Assembly (NCBI RefSeq): GCF_000422565.1
Contig: NZ_AUMA01000006.1
Location: 124,001 to 188,000 of the forward strand
Reading direction: 5' to 3'
From: Desulfovibrio aminophilus DSM 12254
GTDB lineage: Bacteria; Desulfobacterota; Desulfovibrionia; Desulfovibrionales; Desulfovibrionaceae
DNA length: 64,000 nucleotides
Shown: positions 22,867 through 32,598 of the stretch, one piece after another
How the letters are laid out: each line of letters begins with the position of its first letter
How positions within the stretch are numbered: the first letter of the stretch is position 1
Made by a program: the position numbers and the translations under genes
The notes under the pieces: model-generated
The model's input: only the letters and a program-made list of their open reading frames with translations
Database searches by the model: none
What the model was told of the DNA's origin: nothing

Positions 22867-23283
22867 TCAACGCACCACGGATACCGTGCAGTTGGCGTAG
22901 TTGATCACCCGTCGGCACACGGAGCCGAGCATCCATTTTTCGACGAGCGTGTTCCCTCGATGCCCCATGGCGATCATCTGCACCTTTTCCTCCTCGGCCA
23001 GAAGAATGATCTGCTCCGCGGGGTGGCCTACCTTCAGCTCGAAGCGGGGGGTGATGCCTTCAGCTGCGGCGCGGGCTGCCAGTTTGGTGAAATGCTTCGT
23101 ATAGAATTCTTCCGCGTGGTCCAACACGGCGGAGACCTCGACGCTCACTGGCGGCTCGGGCAGGGTCGCCACGGAGCAGACGATGAGTTTCGCGCCGTAC
23201 TTCGCGGCGATGCCCACTGCGAAGTCGAATGCCTTTTCTGACTGGGGCGAGGCGTCATAGGCGACAAGCAGCTTCCTGATCAT
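22867..23283 (-). CDS. Universal stress protein
   Basis: A 138-residue UspA-domain protein: KLLVAYDASPQSEKAFDFAV at the start and MGHRGNTLVEKWMLGSVCRRVI near the end. The latter is a G-x2-G-x9-G(S) type ATP-binding signature in slightly altered form. The start overlaps the stop of the antiporter gene as ATGA, so it is translated with it. UspA genes recur in fluoride-riboswitch regulons; the role there is unknown, possibly regulation of the coupled antiporter. Confidence 0.93.
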   Translation of the reverse strand: MIRKLLVAYDASPQSEKAFDFAVGIAAKYGAKLIVCSVATLPEPPVSVEVSAVLDHAEEFYTKHFTKLAARAAAEGITPRFELKVGHPAEQIILLAEEEKVQMIAMGHRGNTLVEKWMLGSVCRRVINYANCTVSVVR

Positions 23284-24491
23284 GGGGTGCCTCCTGGCGT
23301 TTGAACTGGTTGCTGCGGGGGGATGACAATCGTTCTGCCGGCACCGGAGCGAAGTAGGTGCCTCGGCAGGAAAAGCTTGTTGGCGATGAGCGTCGGCACC
23401 ACTGCGCTGGCGATGACGGCCGCCACAAGATAGGAATACTGGGCGTCGTCGACGATTCCCTTGTTCAGGCCGAAGAGGGCGGCGATGCTGCCGAAGGTCA
23501 GTCCGGTGGACATGAGCATCGTCGAGTACATGCCCTCCTGCCGGGGATTCTCAAAAAAGCGGGTGGCGGGGTACACGGCGATGAACTTGGCCGCCATCTT
23601 GACCAGCAACAACACCACGAAGACCATCGGCGCCGCGGCCAGGGCAGGCACGGACACGAGGGAACCGGCCCGGATGAAGTAGAAGGGCGTGAGCAGGCCG
23701 AAGGTCAGTGTGCGCAGCCGGCGGATGAGCGCGTGGTCCTTGCCCACGGTTCCGGCCAGGACCATGCCGATGAGATAGGCTGGAAGCACCGCCTCGCTTT
23801 CGGCCCAGGCGGCGAGACCGCCGAGGCCGAAGAGCAGCAGGAGCAGGTACTTGGCCTCCAATTCCGAAGGCCGTCCTCCGTATTTTCCGAAGAAACGGAC
23901 GGTGATCCACGGCAGCACCAGGAACGCCGCCGTGCCTACGCCCGCGAAGATGAGTGTGCGCAACGTGAAGGGGGCGAAGATCAGGCCCAGGGCCACCACG
24001 GTGCCGAGATCCGTGACAAAGCATGCGGCCAGAAGGGTTTTGCCGAATTCGGTCTTGTTCAGGCCGAACTCCAGCATGACCGCGTAAACCACGGCCACCG
24101 AGGTTGTGGACAGGGCCACGCCGGCGAGCCAGCTTGCCGTGGCGTTCCAGCCGAGAAGCCAGTGCGCAGCTGCAGCGCAACCGAAAAACGGCGCGAGAAA
24201 GCTCAAGAGCCCCACGGCCGTGGCCTCTTTCCATTTCTGGCGGAAGATGGTCGGATCAAGCTCGGCGCCTGCCAGGAAGGTCAGGAGAATGGCTCCGGTA
24301 CCGGAGAGGAACTTGATCCAGGAATCCCCGACCCCAAGCGAGGCGCCGAGCACGGCTCCCAGAACCATCTGCGCCACGGTGCCCACGACGATTTCCGAGA
24401 GCGCCGTGGCGATGCGAAACCAGATGGACAACAAGGTGGCGAGCAGGGCGAGTCCGATCCAGATCGTTGCGAGAAACCATGTTTCCGCCAT
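23280..24491 (-). CDS. Kef-type (CPA2) cation/proton antiporter
   Basis: A 403-residue membrane protein with about 12 hydrophobic segments, matching the Na+/H+ exchanger domain of the CPA2 family (LTFLAGAELDPTIFRQKWKEA; ALSTTSVAVVYAVMLE; LLAACFVTDLGTVVALGLI). The paired conserved acidic residues of the transport core appear in VTDLGTV. There is no C-terminal RCK/TrkA-N domain, so it is not a full KefB/C. In this fluoride operon it may restore pH or cation balance when HF entry acidifies the cytoplasm; the ion is not defined. Confidence 0.88.
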   Translation of the reverse strand: MAETWFLATIWIGLALLATLLSIWFRIATALSEIVVGTVAQMVLGAVLGASLGVGDSWIKFLSGTGAILLTFLAGAELDPTIFRQKWKEATAVGLLSFLAPFFGCAAAAHWLLGWNATASWLAGVALSTTSVAVVYAVMLEFGLNKTEFGKTLLAACFVTDLGTVVALGLIFAPFTLRTLIFAGVGTAAFLVLPWITVRFFGKYGGRPSELEAKYLLLLLFGLGGLAAWAESEAVLPAYLIGMVLAGTVGKDHALIRRLRTLTFGLLTPFYFIRAGSLVSVPALAAAPMVFVVLLLVKMAAKFIAVYPATRFFENPRQEGMYSTMLMSTGLTFGSIAALFGLNKGIVDDAQYSYLVAAVIASAVVPTLIANKLFLPRHLLRSGAGRTIVIPPQQPVQTPGGTP

Positions 24492-25811: not shown

Positions 25812-26402
25812 CTAAGGCCGTTCGGCCTGTGTGGTGATGCCGCCCCGTGCGGCGACGTAGTCCCAGTAGCTGTGGTCCATGGCGTCTGTATCGCTCCAGA
25901 GCCAGGGGAAGTGCCCGTAGCGCAAAGAAAGCTGGCCAGCCGCGTCACTCGCCGGGAGATGCCTGCTGGCGAAAAGCCAGGCCGAAACCACGAGCCCGGT
26001 CCGGTCCGCGCCTCCCTCGCAGTGGATGAGCAGGGGCTTGGGCGTCCGGTCCACGCAGTCCATTATTTCGTCCAGGGTTCCTGGCGCGACAGGCTCCAGG
26101 GCCGAAAGCTTGCGGTCGTAGAGGACCACCCCGTGTTCCCGGGCCACGGCCGTTTCCTGCTGGTACCAATGGGAGTCCGGATGGCGTCCGCGCAGGTTCA
26201 GGATGGAGCGGATGCCGTGTTTTTCAATGAAGCGGCCCAGTGTTTCCGGGTCCAGCTGGGCCGAGCGGTAAATCCGCCCCTCCTCCACCACATGGATGTT
26301 GTTCCAGCCGCGTACGGCCAGGAACAGGGCGCCCAGGAACAGAAGCACGGCCAAGATGGCCGCGAGCCCGCGCGCCCATGACCGGATGCGGGATTGCGTC
26401 AC
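25812..26402 (-). CDS. Membrane-anchored tyrosine/dual-specificity-type phosphatase
   Basis: A 196-residue protein with one N-terminal transmembrane helix (about 12-30) and a phosphatase domain carrying the P-loop HCEGGADRTG (C128, R134). The general-acid region lies upstream around LNLRGRHPDSHWYQ. The domain is probably outside the membrane, so it may act on periplasmic phosphate compounds rather than phosphoproteins. The start is a GTG at 26402 overlapping the stop of the DUF190-CBS gene. The substrate is unknown. Confidence 0.88.
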   Translation of the reverse strand: MTQSRIRSWARGLAAILAVLLFLGALFLAVRGWNNIHVVEEGRIYRSAQLDPETLGRFIEKHGIRSILNLRGRHPDSHWYQQETAVAREHGVVLYDRKLSALEPVAPGTLDEIMDCVDRTPKPLLIHCEGGADRTGLVVSAWLFASRHLPASDAAGQLSLRYGHFPWLWSDTDAMDHSYWDYVAARGGITTQAERP

Positions 26403-27640
26403 TGCACGCCCCCGATGGCCTTGAGCATCTGGTCCCTGTCCACCATGCCGGACAGGTGGCCCTGCCCATCGGTCACCACAAGCCGCTTGGCCTTGCGTTG
26501 CACCATTTCCTGGAGCACAAGGGATACCGGCGTCTCCTCGGCGATGCTGAACACGGTCGTGCGCATGGCTTGGGCCGCGGTTCCTTCCAAACCGGAGGGT
26601 TCGGCAGGTTGCCGCGAGAAAAGCGCCGCCAGGGACTGTAGCGGCCCGGAGCGCGTCTTTTCCGCAAAGCGGCGGAACAGATCCCGGTCCAGGATGATGC
26701 CGAGCATCCGGCGGTCCTGGTCCACGACCACCACGCGCCGCAAAGGCGAGGACAGGATTTTCTTCAGCGCCTGGTCCAGCGGCGCGTCCGGGGCCACCGT
26801 GGGCACGTCGCGGAGCATGACATCCCGGGCCAGTCCGTCCAGGCGGCCAGGCAGACCGGGCAGGCTGTCGGCCACGGAGGCGGCGGTGGCGATGGTCCGC
26901 AGCACGTCGATGCGGCTGACGATGCCGGCCAGCTTGCCGCGCTCGTCCAGCACCGGCAGCCGTTTGATCTTCTTTTTGGCCATGAGCCGGGCCGCTTCAG
27001 GCACCTTGGCCCGGATGCCGATGGTCGCCACCGGGGCGGTCATCACGTCCCGGGCCGTCTTTCCCGAATGGTCCAGCGCCTTGACCTGCGCTTCGCGGAC
27101 AAGACCGGGCAGCTCCCGGTGCAGGCTGAGGCGCAGGGACATGCCGCCGCGTTCGAGAAGGTCTCCGCCTGTCACGATCCCGAGCACCGTCCCGTCCTGG
27201 ACCACAGGAACGGCCTTGATGTCCCGTTCGAGCATGGCGGCCAGGATCCGGGACAGGGGAGCGTCCGGCGGCACTGTGGCCACGTCCGCAGTCATGACGT
27301 CGCTGACCCGCATGGGATGGAAGAAGGTCGCCTGAACCTGCTGGCGAATCACCGCGCCCTCGCTGACGGTCTCCTCCAGCCAGGGCAGGAAGGCTGTGAT
27401 GCGCTCGGGGCGGTCCACAATCTCCACCACCATGGGCAGATCCTCGGACAATCGGAGGATCTTGGCGGTATGCACTAGGCTGTTGGCCCCGAAGCCGAGA
27501 ACGCCCCGGAGCACTGTTGCCCCGGCCAGCCCGCGTTTCCTGGCCTCCTCGGCCACGATTTCGAAAAGCGGGCGGCCCTTGATCTGGTCGCTTTCCCCCA
27601 CGTAGACGCGCAGGATTTCCGCATCGATCTTGATATGCAT
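26399..27640 (-). CDS. DUF190 plus four-CBS-domain regulatory protein
   Basis: A 413-residue cytoplasmic protein. Residues about 1-105 are a DUF190 domain (LFEIVAEEARKRGLAGATVLRGVLGFG), a PII-like fold often encoded next to crcB. Four CBS modules follow (around VSDVMTADVATV, ARDVMTAPVATI, ARDVMLRDVPTV and AQAMRTTVFSI), which usually bind adenosine nucleotides. The start at 27640 gives MHIKIDAEILRVYVGE; an upstream extension is not supported. The fusion suggests a sensor that couples energy or nucleotide state to the CrcB channel encoded 14 nt upstream. That coupling is inference. Confidence 0.92.
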   Translation of the reverse strand: MHIKIDAEILRVYVGESDQIKGRPLFEIVAEEARKRGLAGATVLRGVLGFGANSLVHTAKILRLSEDLPMVVEIVDRPERITAFLPWLEETVSEGAVIRQQVQATFFHPMRVSDVMTADVATVPPDAPLSRILAAMLERDIKAVPVVQDGTVLGIVTGGDLLERGGMSLRLSLHRELPGLVREAQVKALDHSGKTARDVMTAPVATIGIRAKVPEAARLMAKKKIKRLPVLDERGKLAGIVSRIDVLRTIATAASVADSLPGLPGRLDGLARDVMLRDVPTVAPDAPLDQALKKILSSPLRRVVVVDQDRRMLGIILDRDLFRRFAEKTRSGPLQSLAALFSRQPAEPSGLEGTAAQAMRTTVFSIAEETPVSLVLQEMVQRKAKRLVVTDGQGHLSGMVDRDQMLKAIGGVQ

Positions 27641-27654
27641 CGTGTCGCTCCTTG

Positions 27655-28029
27655 TCAGATCAGCCTGCCGAGCAGCATGCCCGCCGCCAGGCAGGACAGG
27701 CCGAGCAGGCCCTGTCCCAGGAAGTTGAGTCCGGCGAGGAGCCATTGGGCCGAGCGGATCAACTCGCCGGTTTCGAACATGAAGGTGGAAAAGGTGGTGA
27801 AGGCCCCCATGAAGCCGACCAGGATGACCATCCGGGCTGGGCCGCCAAGGAGCAGCCGCTCCTCGGACAGGACCCAGACCAGGCCGAACAGGAACGACCC
27901 GAGGATGTTCACCGCTGTCGTGCCCCAGGGGAAATCCCGGCCCATGACGCCGTAGACCGCGCCGGACAGCCAGTACCGGGCCAGGGTTCCGGCGGCCCCG
28001 GCCAGGGCCATGAGAAGCATCTTGCTCAC
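27655..28029 (-). CDS. crcB: CrcB/Fluc fluoride channel
   Basis: A 124-residue, four-helix membrane protein of the Fluc family that exports fluoride as a dual-topology dimer. The key features are present: R18 in GTLARYW, N41 in TTAVNILGSF, and the phenylalanine-box stretch GFMGAFTTFSTF (72-83). A single copy is enough for a homodimer. It starts at a GTG that overlaps the stop of the AAA+ ATPase gene (GTGA). The fluoride riboswitch at 29571 controls the transcript. Confidence 0.97.
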   Translation of the reverse strand: MSKMLLMALAGAAGTLARYWLSGAVYGVMGRDFPWGTTAVNILGSFLFGLVWVLSEERLLLGGPARMVILVGFMGAFTTFSTFMFETGELIRSAQWLLAGLNFLGQGLLGLSCLAAGMLLGRLI

Positions 28030-29477
28030 AGGTTCAGATTCTCCGTTCTTTTGCGCACCGAGGCAAGGGCTTGGCGGAAGTCCCTGGCCGTCACACGTAG
28101 ATTCTTGAGCCGGTCCTCGGGCAGCGCCGCCGGTTCACGCAGCAGATCGTCCAGGTCGAAACGCCTGCGCAGGCAGGCATAGGCCGCCTCGCGCACCAGG
28201 CAGGCGATGTCCGCCCCCGTGAGTCCGTCCATGTCCCCGGCCAGGGCGGCCAGGTCCACGTTGCGTTCTAGAGGCAGGCCCCGGGTATGGATTCCCAGGA
28301 TTTTCCGCCGTCCGTCCAGGTCCGGCAGCGGAATCTCGATGAGCCGGTCGAAGCGGCCGGGCCGGAGCAGGGCCCGGTCCAGGAGGTCGGGCCGGTTGGT
28401 GGCGGCCAGGACAAAGACCCGGCCCAGGTCGTACACTCCGTCCAGCAAAGTCAGGAGCTGGGTGGTGAAGCGACTGTCCAGGCGCAGGCTCTCGTCCGAG
28501 GAGCGCGACTGGGCGATGGCGTCGATCTCGTCGAAGAAGACGATGGCCGGCTGGCGTTTCTGGGCCTCGTCGAAAAGTTCACGCAGCTTTTCCTCGGATT
28601 CGCCGTGCCACTTGGTGATGAGCTCTGGCCCGCTCACCGGCAGGAAGGCGGCTCCGGACTCGTGGGCCAGAGCCCGGGCCAGCAGTGTCTTGCCGCAGCC
28701 CGGCGGGCCGAAGAGGAGCACACCGCGATGATGCGCGATGCCCAGACGGCGCAGGACTTCCGGGTGTTTCAACGGCAATTCCACAGTCTCGCGCAGGGTG
28801 CGCACGGCCTGATCCAGCCCGCCCACGTCGGTATAGCTGGTCCTGGGAATCAGGCGTCCGGGTTGCGCGCCGGAGATGTCCGCGGACGCCCCGCCTGCCG
28901 GGGGCTTGGCGCGACCCGGATCAACCACGGGCCGGGCCTCGGGCGGCGCGCAGTCCCGCGGCAGGGCGTCCGCCAGGGCTTCGGCCTGCGTCGCGTCGAA
29001 ATGCGGACACAGCTCCAGCCGTTTCCGGGCGGTCTCGTCCCGGAGTCGTTGCTTGAGTGCCGTCTTGTCCGTTTCTCCCGCCCCGTCCCAGGGTGGCACA
29101 TGGGCAAGGCGACGGCAGCCCCAGTTCCAGCCACCTTGGCCCGGCACGCAGTATTTCCGGCCCTCCCGGGCCGCATCCCGAGCCCCGGCGCAGTCCAGCA
29201 CCGCCAGGACCTCCTTGAGGCCCTCCAGGTCCAAGTCCCGCCCATCCAGGCGCAGGAACGAGCCCGGGTGGCCCTTGGCCTCTTTCCAGAGGTCCAGGAG
29301 CACGTCCCGCAGGACCCCGGCCTGGCCCAGGCCCAGGCGCACGCGGCCGCCTTCGCCCGTCCTCTCGAAGCCCGGCAGCAGGGCCGCGCGGCGCAGGCAC
29401 GGGTCGTCCTCCCCGGTGTGGCGCACGGGAAATTCCAGATGGAGTATCACGTCCCGGAGGGAGGTGGGCTGTCTCAT
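28026..29477 (-). CDS. AAA+ ATPase (Cdc48/FtsH-like module) with unrecognised N-domain, first gene of the fluoride operon
   Basis: A 483-residue protein. Residues about 215-450 form a classic AAA module: YTDVGGLDQAVRTLRE, Walker A GPPGCGKT (257-264), pore-loop region ITKWHGESEEKLRE, Walker B IVFFDEID (to 319), sensor AATNRPDLLD and arginine fingers in LRPGRFDR. The first 200 residues match no domain I recognise; they contain a Cys/Trp patch (YCVPGQGGWNWGC, 109-121) and a proline-rich linker. The start at 29477 follows the riboswitch terminator; upstream in-frame codons are riboswitch RNA. It could be an unfoldase or a remodeller of fluoride-damaged metal enzymes, but this is speculation. Confidence 0.9.
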   Translation of the reverse strand: MRQPTSLRDVILHLEFPVRHTGEDDPCLRRAALLPGFERTGEGGRVRLGLGQAGVLRDVLLDLWKEAKGHPGSFLRLDGRDLDLEGLKEVLAVLDCAGARDAAREGRKYCVPGQGGWNWGCRRLAHVPPWDGAGETDKTALKQRLRDETARKRLELCPHFDATQAEALADALPRDCAPPEARPVVDPGRAKPPAGGASADISGAQPGRLIPRTSYTDVGGLDQAVRTLRETVELPLKHPEVLRRLGIAHHRGVLLFGPPGCGKTLLARALAHESGAAFLPVSGPELITKWHGESEEKLRELFDEAQKRQPAIVFFDEIDAIAQSRSSDESLRLDSRFTTQLLTLLDGVYDLGRVFVLAATNRPDLLDRALLRPGRFDRLIEIPLPDLDGRRKILGIHTRGLPLERNVDLAALAGDMDGLTGADIACLVREAAYACLRRRFDLDDLLREPAALPEDRLKNLRVTARDFRQALASVRKRTENLNL

Positions 29478-29549: not shown

Positions 29550-29621
29550 GACTCCTGCCGCATCATTTTCGGCAGGAGTCATCGGCTTCACAAGCGGATC
29601 AAGGGGGACCCCATCCCCTGG
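29550..29621 (-). ncRNA. Fluoride (crcB-motif) riboswitch
   Basis: The minus strand reads GGGGATGGGGTCCCCC, then ATCCGCTTGTGAAGCCGATG, then ACTCCTGC. This matches the crcB-motif consensus GG-GATGG-TTCC-CC, ACCGC...GCTGATGACTCCTRC at nearly all conserved positions. A GCTT/AAGC hairpin lies where the variable stem belongs. The aptamer core is 29571-29619. Its 3' end (GACTCCTGCCG) is also one arm of a perfect 11-bp hairpin (29550-29560 with 29570-29580), so aptamer and hairpin compete. Fluoride binding is expected to favour read-through of the terminator at 29511 into the AAA+-crcB operon. Confidence 0.93.
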
Positions 29622-29643
29622 AGGGAAGAAGGGAAGGCCGTGC

Positions 29644-30210
29644 CTAGTCCTTCTTCCCGTGGACCCTATCATAAACAGCGCGCGAAAAGTCGTCCAGCGC
29701 CTTTTCGCAGCGCTTGATTTTTTTCAGAACGTCTTTGCGCAAGGGCGAGTTGACGGGGTTTCTTTTTTCAATTTTATTCAACCATTTTTTAAGCTTGTCC
29801 AGTTCTTCCTCGTTTTCCTCCACCTCGCCGAAGATGAAGTTCTGTTTCTTCGTCTCCATTTCAATTTCCAACAGGAAATCGTCGCACTTGTGCAGGAGTT
29901 CGCCGTATTCCTCGTTGCCGGACTCCATGAGCGCGGATTTGATACGCGCCTCGTCCTCCGGGCCCAAGGTTTTGCCTTCGATCAGCATGCTTTCGCCCTT
30001 GCAGGCGGCGATTTCGGTGGAAAGCCTTTCCAAGGCGGCGATCCTGTCCACATGGTGCGGCAGGATCCAGAAGGACAGGCAGTTCACCGCCCCCATCTTC
30101 TTGAGCTGCCGCCAGACGCTGACGCGGGCCCGGGACGGCTGCGTCGGCACCGTGTAGGAGAAAAAGAGCCACTTCACGTCGTTGCCACCCCCGTCGTTGA
30201 GTCCGGTCAT
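29644..30210 (-). CDS. ChrB-N-domain protein (chromate-resistance-regulator like)
   Basis: A 188-residue protein whose N-terminal half matches ChrB-type proteins (KWLFFSYTVPTQPSRARVSVWRQLKKMGA, then LPHHVDRIAALERLS). The C-terminal half is highly charged and helical (EVEENEEELDKLKKWLNKIEKR). Full-length ChrB has an extra C-terminal domain that is absent here. Its stop lies 23 nt upstream of the riboswitch, and the promoter for the fluoride operon lies inside its 3' end. An MFS gene precedes it. A role in sensing or resisting oxyanions is plausible but unproven. Confidence 0.8.
   Translation of the reverse strand: MTGLNDGGGNDVKWLFFSYTVPTQPSRARVSVWRQLKKMGAVNCLSFWILPHHVDRIAALERLSTEIAACKGESMLIEGKTLGPEDEARIKSALMESGNEEYGELLHKCDDFLLEIEMETKKQNFIFGEVEENEEELDKLKKWLNKIEKRNPVNSPLRKDVLKKIKRCEKALDDFSRAVYDRVHGKKD
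29668..29696 (-). promoter_or_regulatory. Candidate sigma70 promoter of the fluoride operon
   Basis: On the minus strand TGGACG (29696-29691), a 17-nt spacer and TATGAT (29673-29668) place a start site near 29661, about 40 nt before the aptamer. The promoter lies within the last codons of the chrB-like gene. Confidence 0.5.
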
Positions 30211-30313
30211 TCCGGCGTGTGGCTTCCTTGTATGATTCGGGGCGAATCGTGTAAAGCCGGAACCGGTCCGCCTGGGAAGATGGCGGAAGTCGGCGCGGTT
30301 TTTTCTTCTCCGG

Positions 30314-31561
30314 TCACTTCACATCGTGCCCCGCGCTGGTTGAGGCCCGATGACGGCGCATGACGAGAAGCATCAGCGGGATGGCCAGGAACTGGACGAC
30401 CACGGAAAAGCTCACCAGCGCCGGGATCGACATGTCGTACAGGACGCCCATGAGGGCGCTGCCCGCGAACCAGAACACTCCGAAGCTCATGTTGAAGACG
30501 CCGAAGGCCGAGCCGCGGCGGGCGGCCGGGGACATGGCGGCAACCACGGCCTTCATGACCGACTCCTGGGCGCCCATTCCCACGCCCCAGAGGACGACAC
30601 CGCAGATAGCGCCGGCGAATCCTCCGAGGAACAGAAGCGGCGCGGCCAGGACGCCCGCCAGCATGGCCGCGATGAGGACGCCCATGCCTCTGCGGTCGTA
30701 AACTGCGCCGAAGACGAGGGCGGCGGCGCCGTCCACGGCCATGGCCAGGGCGTAGAAGAAGGGGATCCAGCCTCCGTCGACCACAGCCCGAGCCTGGAAG
30801 TGATAGGCGATGAGGGGGTAGTCGGCGAATCCGGCGGCGACGCAGGCCGTTGCCGCAAGATAGAGCCAGAAAGGCTCGGCAAAACCGTGGGTGTCCAGCT
30901 CCGGCGTGCGCCGCTCCAGGTCGCGGGGATTGGGGAACAGGACGCGCGCCAGTCCCAGGGTCCCCAAGGACAGCAGGGCGGGGATCAGCAGAAGGCCGAA
31001 GCCGAATTGGTAGTCTTGGAGGATCTGGCCGTTTTTCCAGGCGATGACACCGGCCATGAGCAGAGGGCCAATGGTGGCTCCGGTCTGGTCCATGGCCTCG
31101 TGCAGGGCGAACCCCCAGCCCCGGCCCATGGTTTTTCCGGCGAAGGAAAGCATGGCGTCCCGGGGTGGGGAGCGCAGAGCCTTGCCGACGCGTTCCGCGA
31201 ACATGAGCAGCACCGCGTACTGCCAATGCCCGGTGATGGCCAAGAGCGGCACGGCCAGGAGATTGACCAGATAACCGCAGATGGTCACCAGCCAGTACCG
31301 TCCCGTCCGGTCCGCCAAGCGGCCGGAGACCAGCCGCAGAGCGTATCCGAGCAGTTCCCCGAGTCCGGCGACCACGCCCACCACGGTGGCGCTGGCGCCG
31401 AGCAGCGCCAGATATGGGCCGATGATGCCGCGCGCCCCTTCGTAGGTCATGTCCGCAAAGAGGCTGACAATGCCGAGGAGCACCACGAACCATGTGGCGC
31501 GCCTGGCCGTGATGGTGTTGGCCGGAGTCTGGCCGGCAGGGACGGTGTTTTCTCTTTTCAC
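30314..31561 (-). CDS. Major facilitator superfamily transporter
   Basis: A 415-residue membrane protein with about 12 hydrophobic segments. The MFS loop 2-3 motif appears as SGRLADRTGRYW, and the TYEGARGIIGPYLALLGAS region resembles the fosmidomycin-resistance/UMF1-like group. It starts at a GTG (31561) preceded by TGGAG; the frame remains open far upstream, but that part is antisense to the PiT gene. It lies between the PiT-like transporter and the chrB-like gene on the same strand. The substrate is not predictable; export of an anion or metal is reasonable in this context. Confidence 0.88.
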   Translation of the reverse strand: MKRENTVPAGQTPANTITARRATWFVVLLGIVSLFADMTYEGARGIIGPYLALLGASATVVGVVAGLGELLGYALRLVSGRLADRTGRYWLVTICGYLVNLLAVPLLAITGHWQYAVLLMFAERVGKALRSPPRDAMLSFAGKTMGRGWGFALHEAMDQTGATIGPLLMAGVIAWKNGQILQDYQFGFGLLLIPALLSLGTLGLARVLFPNPRDLERRTPELDTHGFAEPFWLYLAATACVAAGFADYPLIAYHFQARAVVDGGWIPFFYALAMAVDGAAALVFGAVYDRRGMGVLIAAMLAGVLAAPLLFLGGFAGAICGVVLWGVGMGAQESVMKAVVAAMSPAARRGSAFGVFNMSFGVFWFAGSALMGVLYDMSIPALVSFSVVVQFLAIPLMLLVMRRHRASTSAGHDVK

Positions 31562-31626
31562 CGGGGGACTCCACGGCAAAAGGTTGGAACAGGGACCAGT
31601 CGGAGGAAGACGTCCATTCCCTTCTC

Positions 31627-32598
31627 TCACTGCACCTTGAGAATGAAGTGCAGCAGCTTGTAGAGACAGAAGGACACGATTCCGGCCAGCACCGGCGTGA
31701 AGAACCAGGAGAAGACGATCTCGGCCAGTGCCTTGCGATTCAGAGTCTTGAGCCCGCGAGCCCCACCCGCCCCGGCCACCCCGCCGATGAGCGCCTGGTT
31801 CATGGACGTGGGGTAGCCGATGAACGCCGCAGTGTGGGCCGTGATGCTCTGGGCCAGCTTGGCTCCGACTCCCATGTTCAGGTCCAGTTGGACGATGCCC
31901 TTGCCGACCTTTTCCAGAATGGGCTTGCCCCAGGTCAGGGCGCCGATGGCCATGACGATGCCGCCGATGAACCCGGCCTTCATGGGCGTCAGGAGCTTGA
32001 GGCCGTAGAACACGCCCACGGCGTTGCCGGTGTTGTTGGCTCCCAGGGTGTAGGCCGCGTAGCAGCAGCCCGCCAGCAGCGCCCACTGAAGACACTTGGT
32101 GCCCCGGGCGGAGCAGTTCTTCATCACCCGGTCGGTCAGCCGGGTGAGCAGGAAACCGAGCAGGGCGCTCATGATGGGGGTGCCGATCCAGGTCACGAAG
32201 AGGAAGACGATGGTCGTCTTCCAGAAGACCGGCGCGCCCATGGCCAGGGCCGAGCCCACCACCGAGAAGCAGGCCAGCTGCGAGGTGGACACGGGCCACT
32301 TGAACCAGGTGTTGGCCGCGGTCACCATGGCCGCGGTAAACATCATGACCATGGCCCCCAGCGGGGTCATGTCCTCGCCCCGGATGATGCCGGTGCCCAC
32401 GGTCTGCACCACGTTGTGGCTTTCGAACGTGGCCCCCAGGATGACGAAGAAGGCGATGAGCAGACAGGCGGTGATGGGCTTCTTGATGACCCCAGCTCCG
32501 TAGGCCATGCCCATGGTGGCCCCGGTGTAGTGCGAGCCGATGGTCCAGCCGAAGAACAGTCCCGAGAGGACCATGCCTATGGTGAGTGCGTGTTCCAT
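31627..32598 (-). CDS. PiT-family (phosphate/sulfate permease type) transporter
   Basis: A 323-residue polytopic membrane protein of the PiT/PHO4 family. The duplicated signature is divergent: GWTIGSHYTGATMG near the N-terminus and GANNTGNAVGVFYG in the second half, instead of GANDVANA. PiT relatives carry phosphate or, as CysP, sulfate. The altered motif makes the substrate uncertain, and a tetrahedral oxyanion is the best guess. A strong AGGGGGAAT ribosome-binding site precedes the ATG. It heads the PiT-MFS-ChrB set behind an AT-rich promoter with inverted repeats. Confidence 0.88.
   Translation of the reverse strand: MEHALTIGMVLSGLFFGWTIGSHYTGATMGMAYGAGVIKKPITACLLIAFFVILGATFESHNVVQTVGTGIIRGEDMTPLGAMVMMFTAAMVTAANTWFKWPVSTSQLACFSVVGSALAMGAPVFWKTTIVFLFVTWIGTPIMSALLGFLLTRLTDRVMKNCSARGTKCLQWALLAGCCYAAYTLGANNTGNAVGVFYGLKLLTPMKAGFIGGIVMAIGALTWGKPILEKVGKGIVQLDLNMGVGAKLAQSITAHTAAFIGYPTSMNQALIGGVAGAGGARGLKTLNRKALAEIVFSWFFTPVLAGIVSFCLYKLLHFILKVQ

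Follow-up and report, generated by a model that had tools for sequence, protein, structure and literature searches.

We identified a fluoride-linked AAA ATPase in a 64,000-nucleotide (nt) stretch of the genome of Desulfovibrio aminophilus DSM 12254 (hereafter the window; the genome itself is coded G000). The gene lies on the minus strand at 28026..29477, its stop-free translation of 483 residues carries a PF00004 match, and it follows a fluoride riboswitch and overlaps the fluoride channel gene crcB. Full-length relatives were found in 10 of the 348 genomes of the order Desulfovibrionales, in 7 genera, and in eight of the ten a fluoride riboswitch lies upstream of the AAA gene on the same strand, as judged by Rfam scans of the neighbourhoods and of the order. 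The protein joins a motor of the classic AAA type to an N-terminal domain (N-domain) that appears to be new. We propose, with a probability of about 0.42, that it is a remodeller, induced by fluoride, that would rescue client proteins locked or damaged by fluoride.

The AAA gene lies between a fluoride riboswitch and crcB

Ahead of the AAA gene, on the same minus strand, lies a fluoride riboswitch aptamer (RF01734, the crcB RNA motif; 29566..29627), which matched positions 1-64 of the 64 in the Rfam model at 45.5 bits against a gathering threshold of 34. Between this aptamer and the ATG of the AAA gene sits a terminator-like hairpin (29537-29516 as read on the minus strand) that has a stem of 9 pairs and a T run behind it, presumably the expression platform of the riboswitch; 2 overlapping matches were obtained here, compared with a mean of 0.4 in shuffles. 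The ATG at 29477 is downstream of the hairpin. The list of open reading frames also holds an upstream ATG at 29672, and reading from there would cross the riboswitch. At the other end, the AAA gene runs 4 nt into crcB, its stop at 28026 overlapping the GTG start at 28029; crcB encodes a Fluc-type fluoride channel of 124 residues (27655..28029, minus strand; PF02537 at 1.8e-23). The initial annotation had read the AAA gene as the first gene of a fluoride operon, translationally coupled to crcB, and the aptamer, the hairpin and the overlap all agree with that reading.

Recurrence in fluoride loci of the order

In the ten carriers (G000, G079, G082, G115, G124, G200, G228, G231, G233, and G324) the distance from riboswitch to AAA gene, where both were found, ranged from 89 to 2567 bases. 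A rough estimate of the chance of this linkage under independent placement is about 2e-25, or about 2e-16 with one count per genus (6 of 7 genera), and probabilities this small indicate that the link is not due to chance. The order-wide Rfam scan, whose strict filters weak riboswitches could escape, matched a fluoride riboswitch in 54 of the 348 genomes, with 59 places in 49 genomes over the cut-off. DUF190 stands in the cluster of the AAA gene in nine of the ten loci, crcB in eight, and enolase in six, and the spacing to crcB or DUF190 runs from the 4-nt overlap to about 28 nt in 9/10 loci. All ten carrier genomes have crcB and DUF190 somewhere, the crcB of G082 being interrupted. The unfoldase-type protein that the initial annotation had flagged at a single fluoride locus is thus recurrent in the order, with a riboswitch in 8/10, and its tie to crcB, which was also at issue there, extends to the same cluster in 8/10 loci.

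At least five gene orders retain the fluoride link, which argues that the neighbourhood was not simply inherited. In the window the order is riboswitch, AAA, crcB, DUF190-CBS, phosphatase, enolase, antiporter. Loci L099 and L101 read riboswitch, MFS, AAA, crcB, DUF190-CBS, phosphatase, enolase; L100 differs from these in having a second MFS gene, 1.3 kb without annotation ahead of the enolase gene, and the antiporter; and L103 reads riboswitch, MFS, AAA, crcB, DUF190-CBS. The AAA gene comes last in L105 (riboswitch, enolase, crcB, DUF190, AAA), in L104, where an MFS gene and a second riboswitch precede the same order, and in L097 (crcB, DUF190-CBS, AAA). The G082 contig stops close to the expected riboswitch site; a terminator-like hairpin remains at L005:16-39 (by eye) with the interrupted crcB behind it, and an Rfam scan of this contig end gave no riboswitch match.

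In G324 (locus L102) the AAA gene stands alone behind a riboswitch and a terminator-like hairpin, and the next long open reading frame is on the opposite strand. According to the order-wide scan this is the single fluoride riboswitch of the genome. Its crcB and DUF190-CBS genes lie apart from the AAA gene on contig C7, where a direct scan of 5.5 kb found no riboswitch. By virtue of this stand-alone unit the AAA gene seems to be a fluoride-response gene by itself. A tRNA-like fragment seen by eye just upstream of the unit (L102:8500-8540) may mark an island insertion; ARAGORN found no tRNA on L102.

Profiles of the N-domain built from two and from ten members each matched 11 of the 348 genomes, and both sets include all ten full-length carriers. 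The eleventh genome was G309 with the two-member profile and G122, which holds a decayed copy, with the ten-member profile. Weak matches in G043 (E 7.8e-4) and G309 (E 5.6e-4) were absent from the ten-member results and were dropped. A scan of species genomes, with the best 80 matches kept, yielded at least one other full-length relative, on a contig of Desulfonatronospira (L005; best segment 51% identical) that is apparently the same as G082:C31. Among 395 genomes sampled from the phylum there were 2 N-domain matches, both within the family of the window. Within this sampling the gene thus appears patchy and confined to the order.

Two decayed N-domain pieces were found, one in G228:C2 (L107:4748-6403; E 1.4e-23, with TGA in frame at three places) and one in G122:C5 (L151:3651-5380; E 2.9e-6, with one TGA). 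Each remnant follows a same-strand fluoride riboswitch, at distances of 1.3 and 1.5 kb, and gains and losses of the AAA gene seem to occur within fluoride loci. Four fluoride riboswitches are present in G228, and contig C8 holds three of these in a span of about 21 kb (G228:C8:20850-42168).

The phylum-wide riboswitch scan gave a match in 158 of the 395 genomes, 10 of them in the family of the window and 148 outside it. From the top of the ranked list of 148 genomes we hand-picked 60 riboswitch neighbourhoods (59 genomes), omitting second riboswitches of several genomes as well as G487, G689, G590, G604, and G630; 14 of the 60 stretches were contig ends shorter than 5 kb. With the window's own proteins as queries, which miss diverged homologues, these neighbourhoods contained crcB-like (11), DUF190-CBS-like (12), enolase (12), and CPA2-like antiporter (22) genes. 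An AAA-like protein appeared in 1/60 in a search with the window's AAA module, which leaves other AAA types outside it; this protein (33% identity) is on the strand opposite to the riboswitch and was left out of the linked cases. The AAA protein seems to be specific to its lineage, an addition to a fluoride response found widely. The literature on fluoride resistance, covered at the level of titles and abstract openings, reported no AAA protein, although the gene catalogue of Baker et al. 2012 was outside that search and could list one. That catalogue is said to cover genes behind fluoride riboswitches. One paper names both AAA+ and fluoride riboswitches, but in separate contexts.

A single AAA motor with a predicted two-part N-domain

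The AAA module (residues 211-475; 28053..28847, minus strand) was delimited by Pfam matches and a motif table. PF00004 matched residues 253-384 over its full profile (1-131 of 131, 4.7e-42, 144 bits against a gathering threshold of 21.2), and AAA_lid_3 matched residues 406-441. The above-threshold PF00004 match, taken with the two Walker motifs, sensor 1, and the arginine fingers, places the protein in the classic AAA clade. The window protein reads GPPGCGKT at Walker A, KWHGESEE in the pore loop, FFDEID at Walker B, ATNR at sensor 1, RPGR at the arginine fingers, and GLTGAD in the sensor 2 region. In all ten members GPPGCGKT (Walker A), FFDEIDA (Walker B), TNR (sensor 1), and RPGR[FL]D (fingers) are retained, as is the sensor 2 region. 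The pore loop KWHGESEE, with its aromatic tryptophan, is invariant in 10/10. For comparison, 14 archaeal proteins with two rings were taken as the first usable ones from the loci of the species-genome scan; 9 have K[YF]YGESE in the D1 ring, the other 5 being unmatched by the pattern, and 12 have KWVGESE in the D2 ring.

The best PDB sequence matches of the AAA module were an archaeal VCP-like ATPase and Cdc48/p97, and the best fold match of the full-length model was p97 N-D1 (45% identity over ~263 columns). This model (mean predicted local distance difference test, pLDDT, 76.5; predicted template modelling score, pTM, 0.51) is less sure than that of the N-domain given below. In a tree the ten AAA modules formed a single clade (100/100) separate from the archaeal D1 and D2 rings; the comparison set was archaeal rings only, so the tree does not settle the nearest bacterial kin. 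None of the ten members has a membrane-like segment, the top 19-residue hydropathy being 1.03-1.74 and always within the AAA module. No M41 protease model was among the best 25 of the 27 Pfam families matched. The C-termini of the ten members are unconserved, and none of them ends in HbYX. In plasmids the whole AAA protein matched 1255 records, none over 80% of its length. One match, on a Rhizobium plasmid (41%, from residue 114 on), falls in a region without annotation.

The N-domain (residues 1-176; 28950..29477, minus strand) was defined from the ten-member alignment and an AlphaFold2 model. Residues 1-208 lie outside all matches listed for the AAA protein (the best 25 of 27 in Pfam and the best 25 of 41 in NCBIfam). 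When the N-domains of the ten members were searched singly, no Pfam family matched at E<=5 and NCBIfam gave just two single-member matches (E 0.05-0.07). A profile search of the PDB returned interleukin-10 alone (E 0.5-0.6). No match at E<=1 was found in plasmids, no relative in IMG/VR, and nothing better than E 0.17 in a viral library. A relationship to DUF190 was likewise unsupported (hhalign probability 0.6%). The other nine N-domains are 29-42% identical to that of the window, and the alignment has 14 invariant columns. Four of these are cysteines (C96, C110, C121, and C157), for which chance placement gives P 1.6e-4, a guide only, as the rows are related. They are spaced as C-x9 or 13-C-x9 or 10-C-x33 to 37-C, and the third is embedded in G[WY][DN]W[GA]C, which reads GWxWGC in the window protein.

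The AlphaFold2 model of the N-domain has a pTM of 0.72 and a pLDDT of 90 or more at 123 of 214 residues, and its first 175 residues are well predicted. The modelled chain follows a beta-alpha-beta-beta-alpha-beta order at 11-77 and then forms helices and coil about the cysteines. Resemblance to solved structures is confined to the first part and is weak (Foldseek best E 0.1). The best VIA-align match was also weak (Z 5.3, root-mean-square deviation 3.2, 66 aligned), and no known family stood out in that comparison, the rows covering mostly residues 2-80, tied near Z 4-5, and barely reaching the cysteine part. The order of elements in the model suggests a ferredoxin-like arrangement at about 11-77 followed by a cysteine-rich part. 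The four invariant cysteines suggest a putative metal site, for zinc, an Fe-S cluster or another metal, and residues 84-170 may form a metal-held lobe. To judge from its sequence, this front domain would be previously undescribed and would add a family to the N-domains of classic AAA proteins. The initial annotation had described a complete AAA module fused to about 200 residues that matched nothing, with a Cys/Trp patch at 109-121. The full-length PF00004 match with its lid and the profile and structure comparisons bear out this description, and we read the patch as Y109 C110 ... W117 N W119 G C121.

Other genes of the operon and its surroundings

Downstream of crcB, all on the minus strand, the operon continues with a 413-residue protein combining DUF190 with CBS in four stretches (26399..27640; PF02641 at 1e-35). 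It is possible that DUF190-CBS is a nucleotide-sensing regulator of the fluoride channel. DUF190 is free-standing in L104 and L105 and CBS-fused, near crcB, in most other loci. A dual-specificity/tyrosine phosphatase-like protein of 196 residues follows (25812..26402; PF13350 at 9.6e-08), and a similar protein occurs in L099-L101. Next comes the second enolase of the genome (24537..25802; TIGR01060 at 1.2e-187), the other copy being at G000:C23:47908-49155. Five of the six genomes with a cluster enolase show a further full-length enolase elsewhere, and G231 has a fragmented one. An altered active site was looked for in the operon enolase by eye, and its long conserved blocks are intact. The last gene encodes a CPA2-type transporter of the Na+/H+ exchanger family (23280..24491; PF00999 at 4e-38), with a 92% identical protein in the same position at L100.

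Upstream of the riboswitch, at 29644-32598 on the same strand, genes for a PHO4/PiT phosphate transporter, an MFS transporter, and a ChrB_N protein are grouped, and this group, whole or in part, also flanks the fluoride loci L099-L101, L105, and L151. MFS genes, assigned by Pfam and by a query with the L100 MFS protein, follow fluoride riboswitches in L099, L100, L101, L103, L104, and L107. The second fluoride riboswitch of the window genome (G000:C25) precedes a stretch 30% similar to the L100 MFS transporter (L156:4012-5293), in which the longest open reading frame has no Pfam match. The other crcB of this genome (L001, 3.3 kb) is without a riboswitch, so some crcB genes are unlinked to one. 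Group II introns were matched at L099:13149-13247 and L101:12794-12892, in each case some 1.6 kb past the enolase of a fluoride cluster.

Proposed function and alternatives

We hypothesized that the AAA protein acts as follows. Fluoride would bind the riboswitch and lift the terminator, and the protein would then be made together with CrcB and the spare or regulatory proteins. With its aromatic pore loop it would probably act as one hexameric ring, gripping and pulling the client polypeptide and spending ATP, like other classic AAA proteins. The N-domain, through its ferredoxin-like part and its four-cysteine part, the latter probably binding zinc or another metal, would pick the client. The likeliest clients would be cytosolic enzymes that fluoride-metal complexes have locked or damaged, and their remodelling might resemble the opening of inhibited rubisco by its activases. 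A threading-competent ring with a private N-domain, linked to fluoride genes and once alone behind the riboswitch, fits a remodelling role best.

Known routes of fluoride resistance are export through CrcB or CLC-F, extra copies of the enzymes that are inhibited, and control of ions or pH. Fluoride inhibits enolase, pyrophosphatase, and enzymes using metal-ATP (PMC11139923), and known fluoride operons respond with export and spare enzymes (PMC5533749). A riboswitch-linked AAA motor could be a protein-remodelling arm of this response, adding repair to export, and the stand-alone unit of G324 lets its function be tested apart from the operon. In a narrower form, which we regard as rather unlikely in this detail, the protein would be a fluoride activase, its metal-binding N-domain recognising enzymes frozen by fluoride-magnesium-phosphate (or AlFx/BeFx) and its ring pulling them open. 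If so, bacteria would resist fluoride by ATP-driven repair besides export and spare enzymes, and this would be the first dedicated system of the kind.

Several observations weigh against a remodeller of fluoride-locked enzymes. The gene is rare (10/348) and absent from both same-genus relatives scanned, so that most relatives manage without it. In G079 it stands beside DUF190-CBS without crcB, and no riboswitch was found there; the crcB and riboswitch of that genome are on a different contig. Enolase, the obvious locked enzyme, is in only 6/10 clusters, compared with nine for DUF190 and eight for crcB, and the genomic data do not point to one client. The four-cysteine metal site is putative, and a small fluoride complex may dissociate without a machine.

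The same preference for DUF190 and crcB is what makes the main rival, in which the AAA protein serves the CrcB-DUF190 module by assembling, activating, unlocking or removing the channel or its PII-like regulator. We consider it somewhat unlikely. The tight spacing in nine of the ten loci and the presence of crcB and DUF190 in every carrier genome favour such a role. On the other side, DUF190 occurs in 33 of 59 relatives (own genome included), among which only the window genome has a full AAA gene; G324 keeps its riboswitch-AAA unit apart from crcB and DUF190; and the profile comparison gives no support for a relation of the N-domain to DUF190.

The invariant cysteines and the GWxWGC motif would also suit a protein that maintains a metal centre, its four-cysteine domain carrying or sensing zinc or an Fe-S cluster and its motor inserting or removing metal where fluoride captures the ion. 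Fluoride disturbs divalent ions (PMC11139923), and NorQD is an AAA metal inserter (PMC13036017). However, many zinc sites are purely structural and imply no metal transfer, and NorQ, which inserts iron, is of the MoxR type and acts with a VWA partner. We judge this alternative improbable.

Unfoldases of the classic AAA clade, such as PAN and Mpa, serve proteasomes, and the AAA protein might similarly feed fluoride-damaged proteins to HslV or another peptidase. One PF00227 protein is indeed present in 9/10 carrier genomes. This protein is most likely HslV, which already has HslU as its own partner; the unconserved C-termini, none of them HbYX, and the draft genome G233, which has the full cluster and no PF00227 match, also make such a role distinctly improbable. 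Finally, the patchy distribution, the decayed copies in G122 and G228, and the group II introns near two clusters could suggest a passenger of unrelated function in a mobile fluoride cassette, but this is very improbable given the gene orders that keep the fluoride link, the stand-alone unit of G324, and the strong conservation of motor motifs and cysteines.

Comparison with known systems

A close likeness is to Cdc48/VAT/p97. The AAA module is on average 53% identical to the 14 archaeal D1 rings and 49% to the D2 rings, motor motifs and the aromatic pore loop are shared, and p97 N-D1 is the best match of the full-length model. In contrast to Cdc48, the AAA protein has one ring, not two, ending soon after one lid with one PF00004 stretch. 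It scores 310.5 bits with TIGR01243 against a curated cut-off of 802.65, and the Pfam searches of the ten N-domains gave no CDC48_N model, the Pfam counterpart of the double-psi-barrel N-domain. FtsH has a related AAA module, but the AAA protein scores 236.8 bits against the FtsH cut-off of 600, lacks a membrane-like stretch, and has no M41 model among the Pfam families listed above. PAN shares a related AAA module and a single ring, but the score is 287.4 bits against a cut-off of 500 and HbYX is absent from all ten members. By these scores, rings, domains, and termini the protein fits neither Cdc48, FtsH nor a proteasome activator.

At the level of the operon, the FRM operon of Enterobacter cloacae (ppaC, uspA, eno, gpmA, crcB, orf5249) shares the riboswitch, crcB, and a spare enolase with the loci described here, and the term AAA is missing from the main text of that paper (PMC5533749). 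The rubisco activases (Rca, CbbX, CbbQ) differ from the AAA protein, which has its own N-domain and no activase model among its best 25 of 27 Pfam or best 25 of 41 NCBIfam matches. The likeness is in proposed principle only, that of an AAA ring opening an inhibitor-locked enzyme; the pore loops of the red-type activase are thought to pull the tail of the inhibited enzyme and so to open its active site (PMC5385338).

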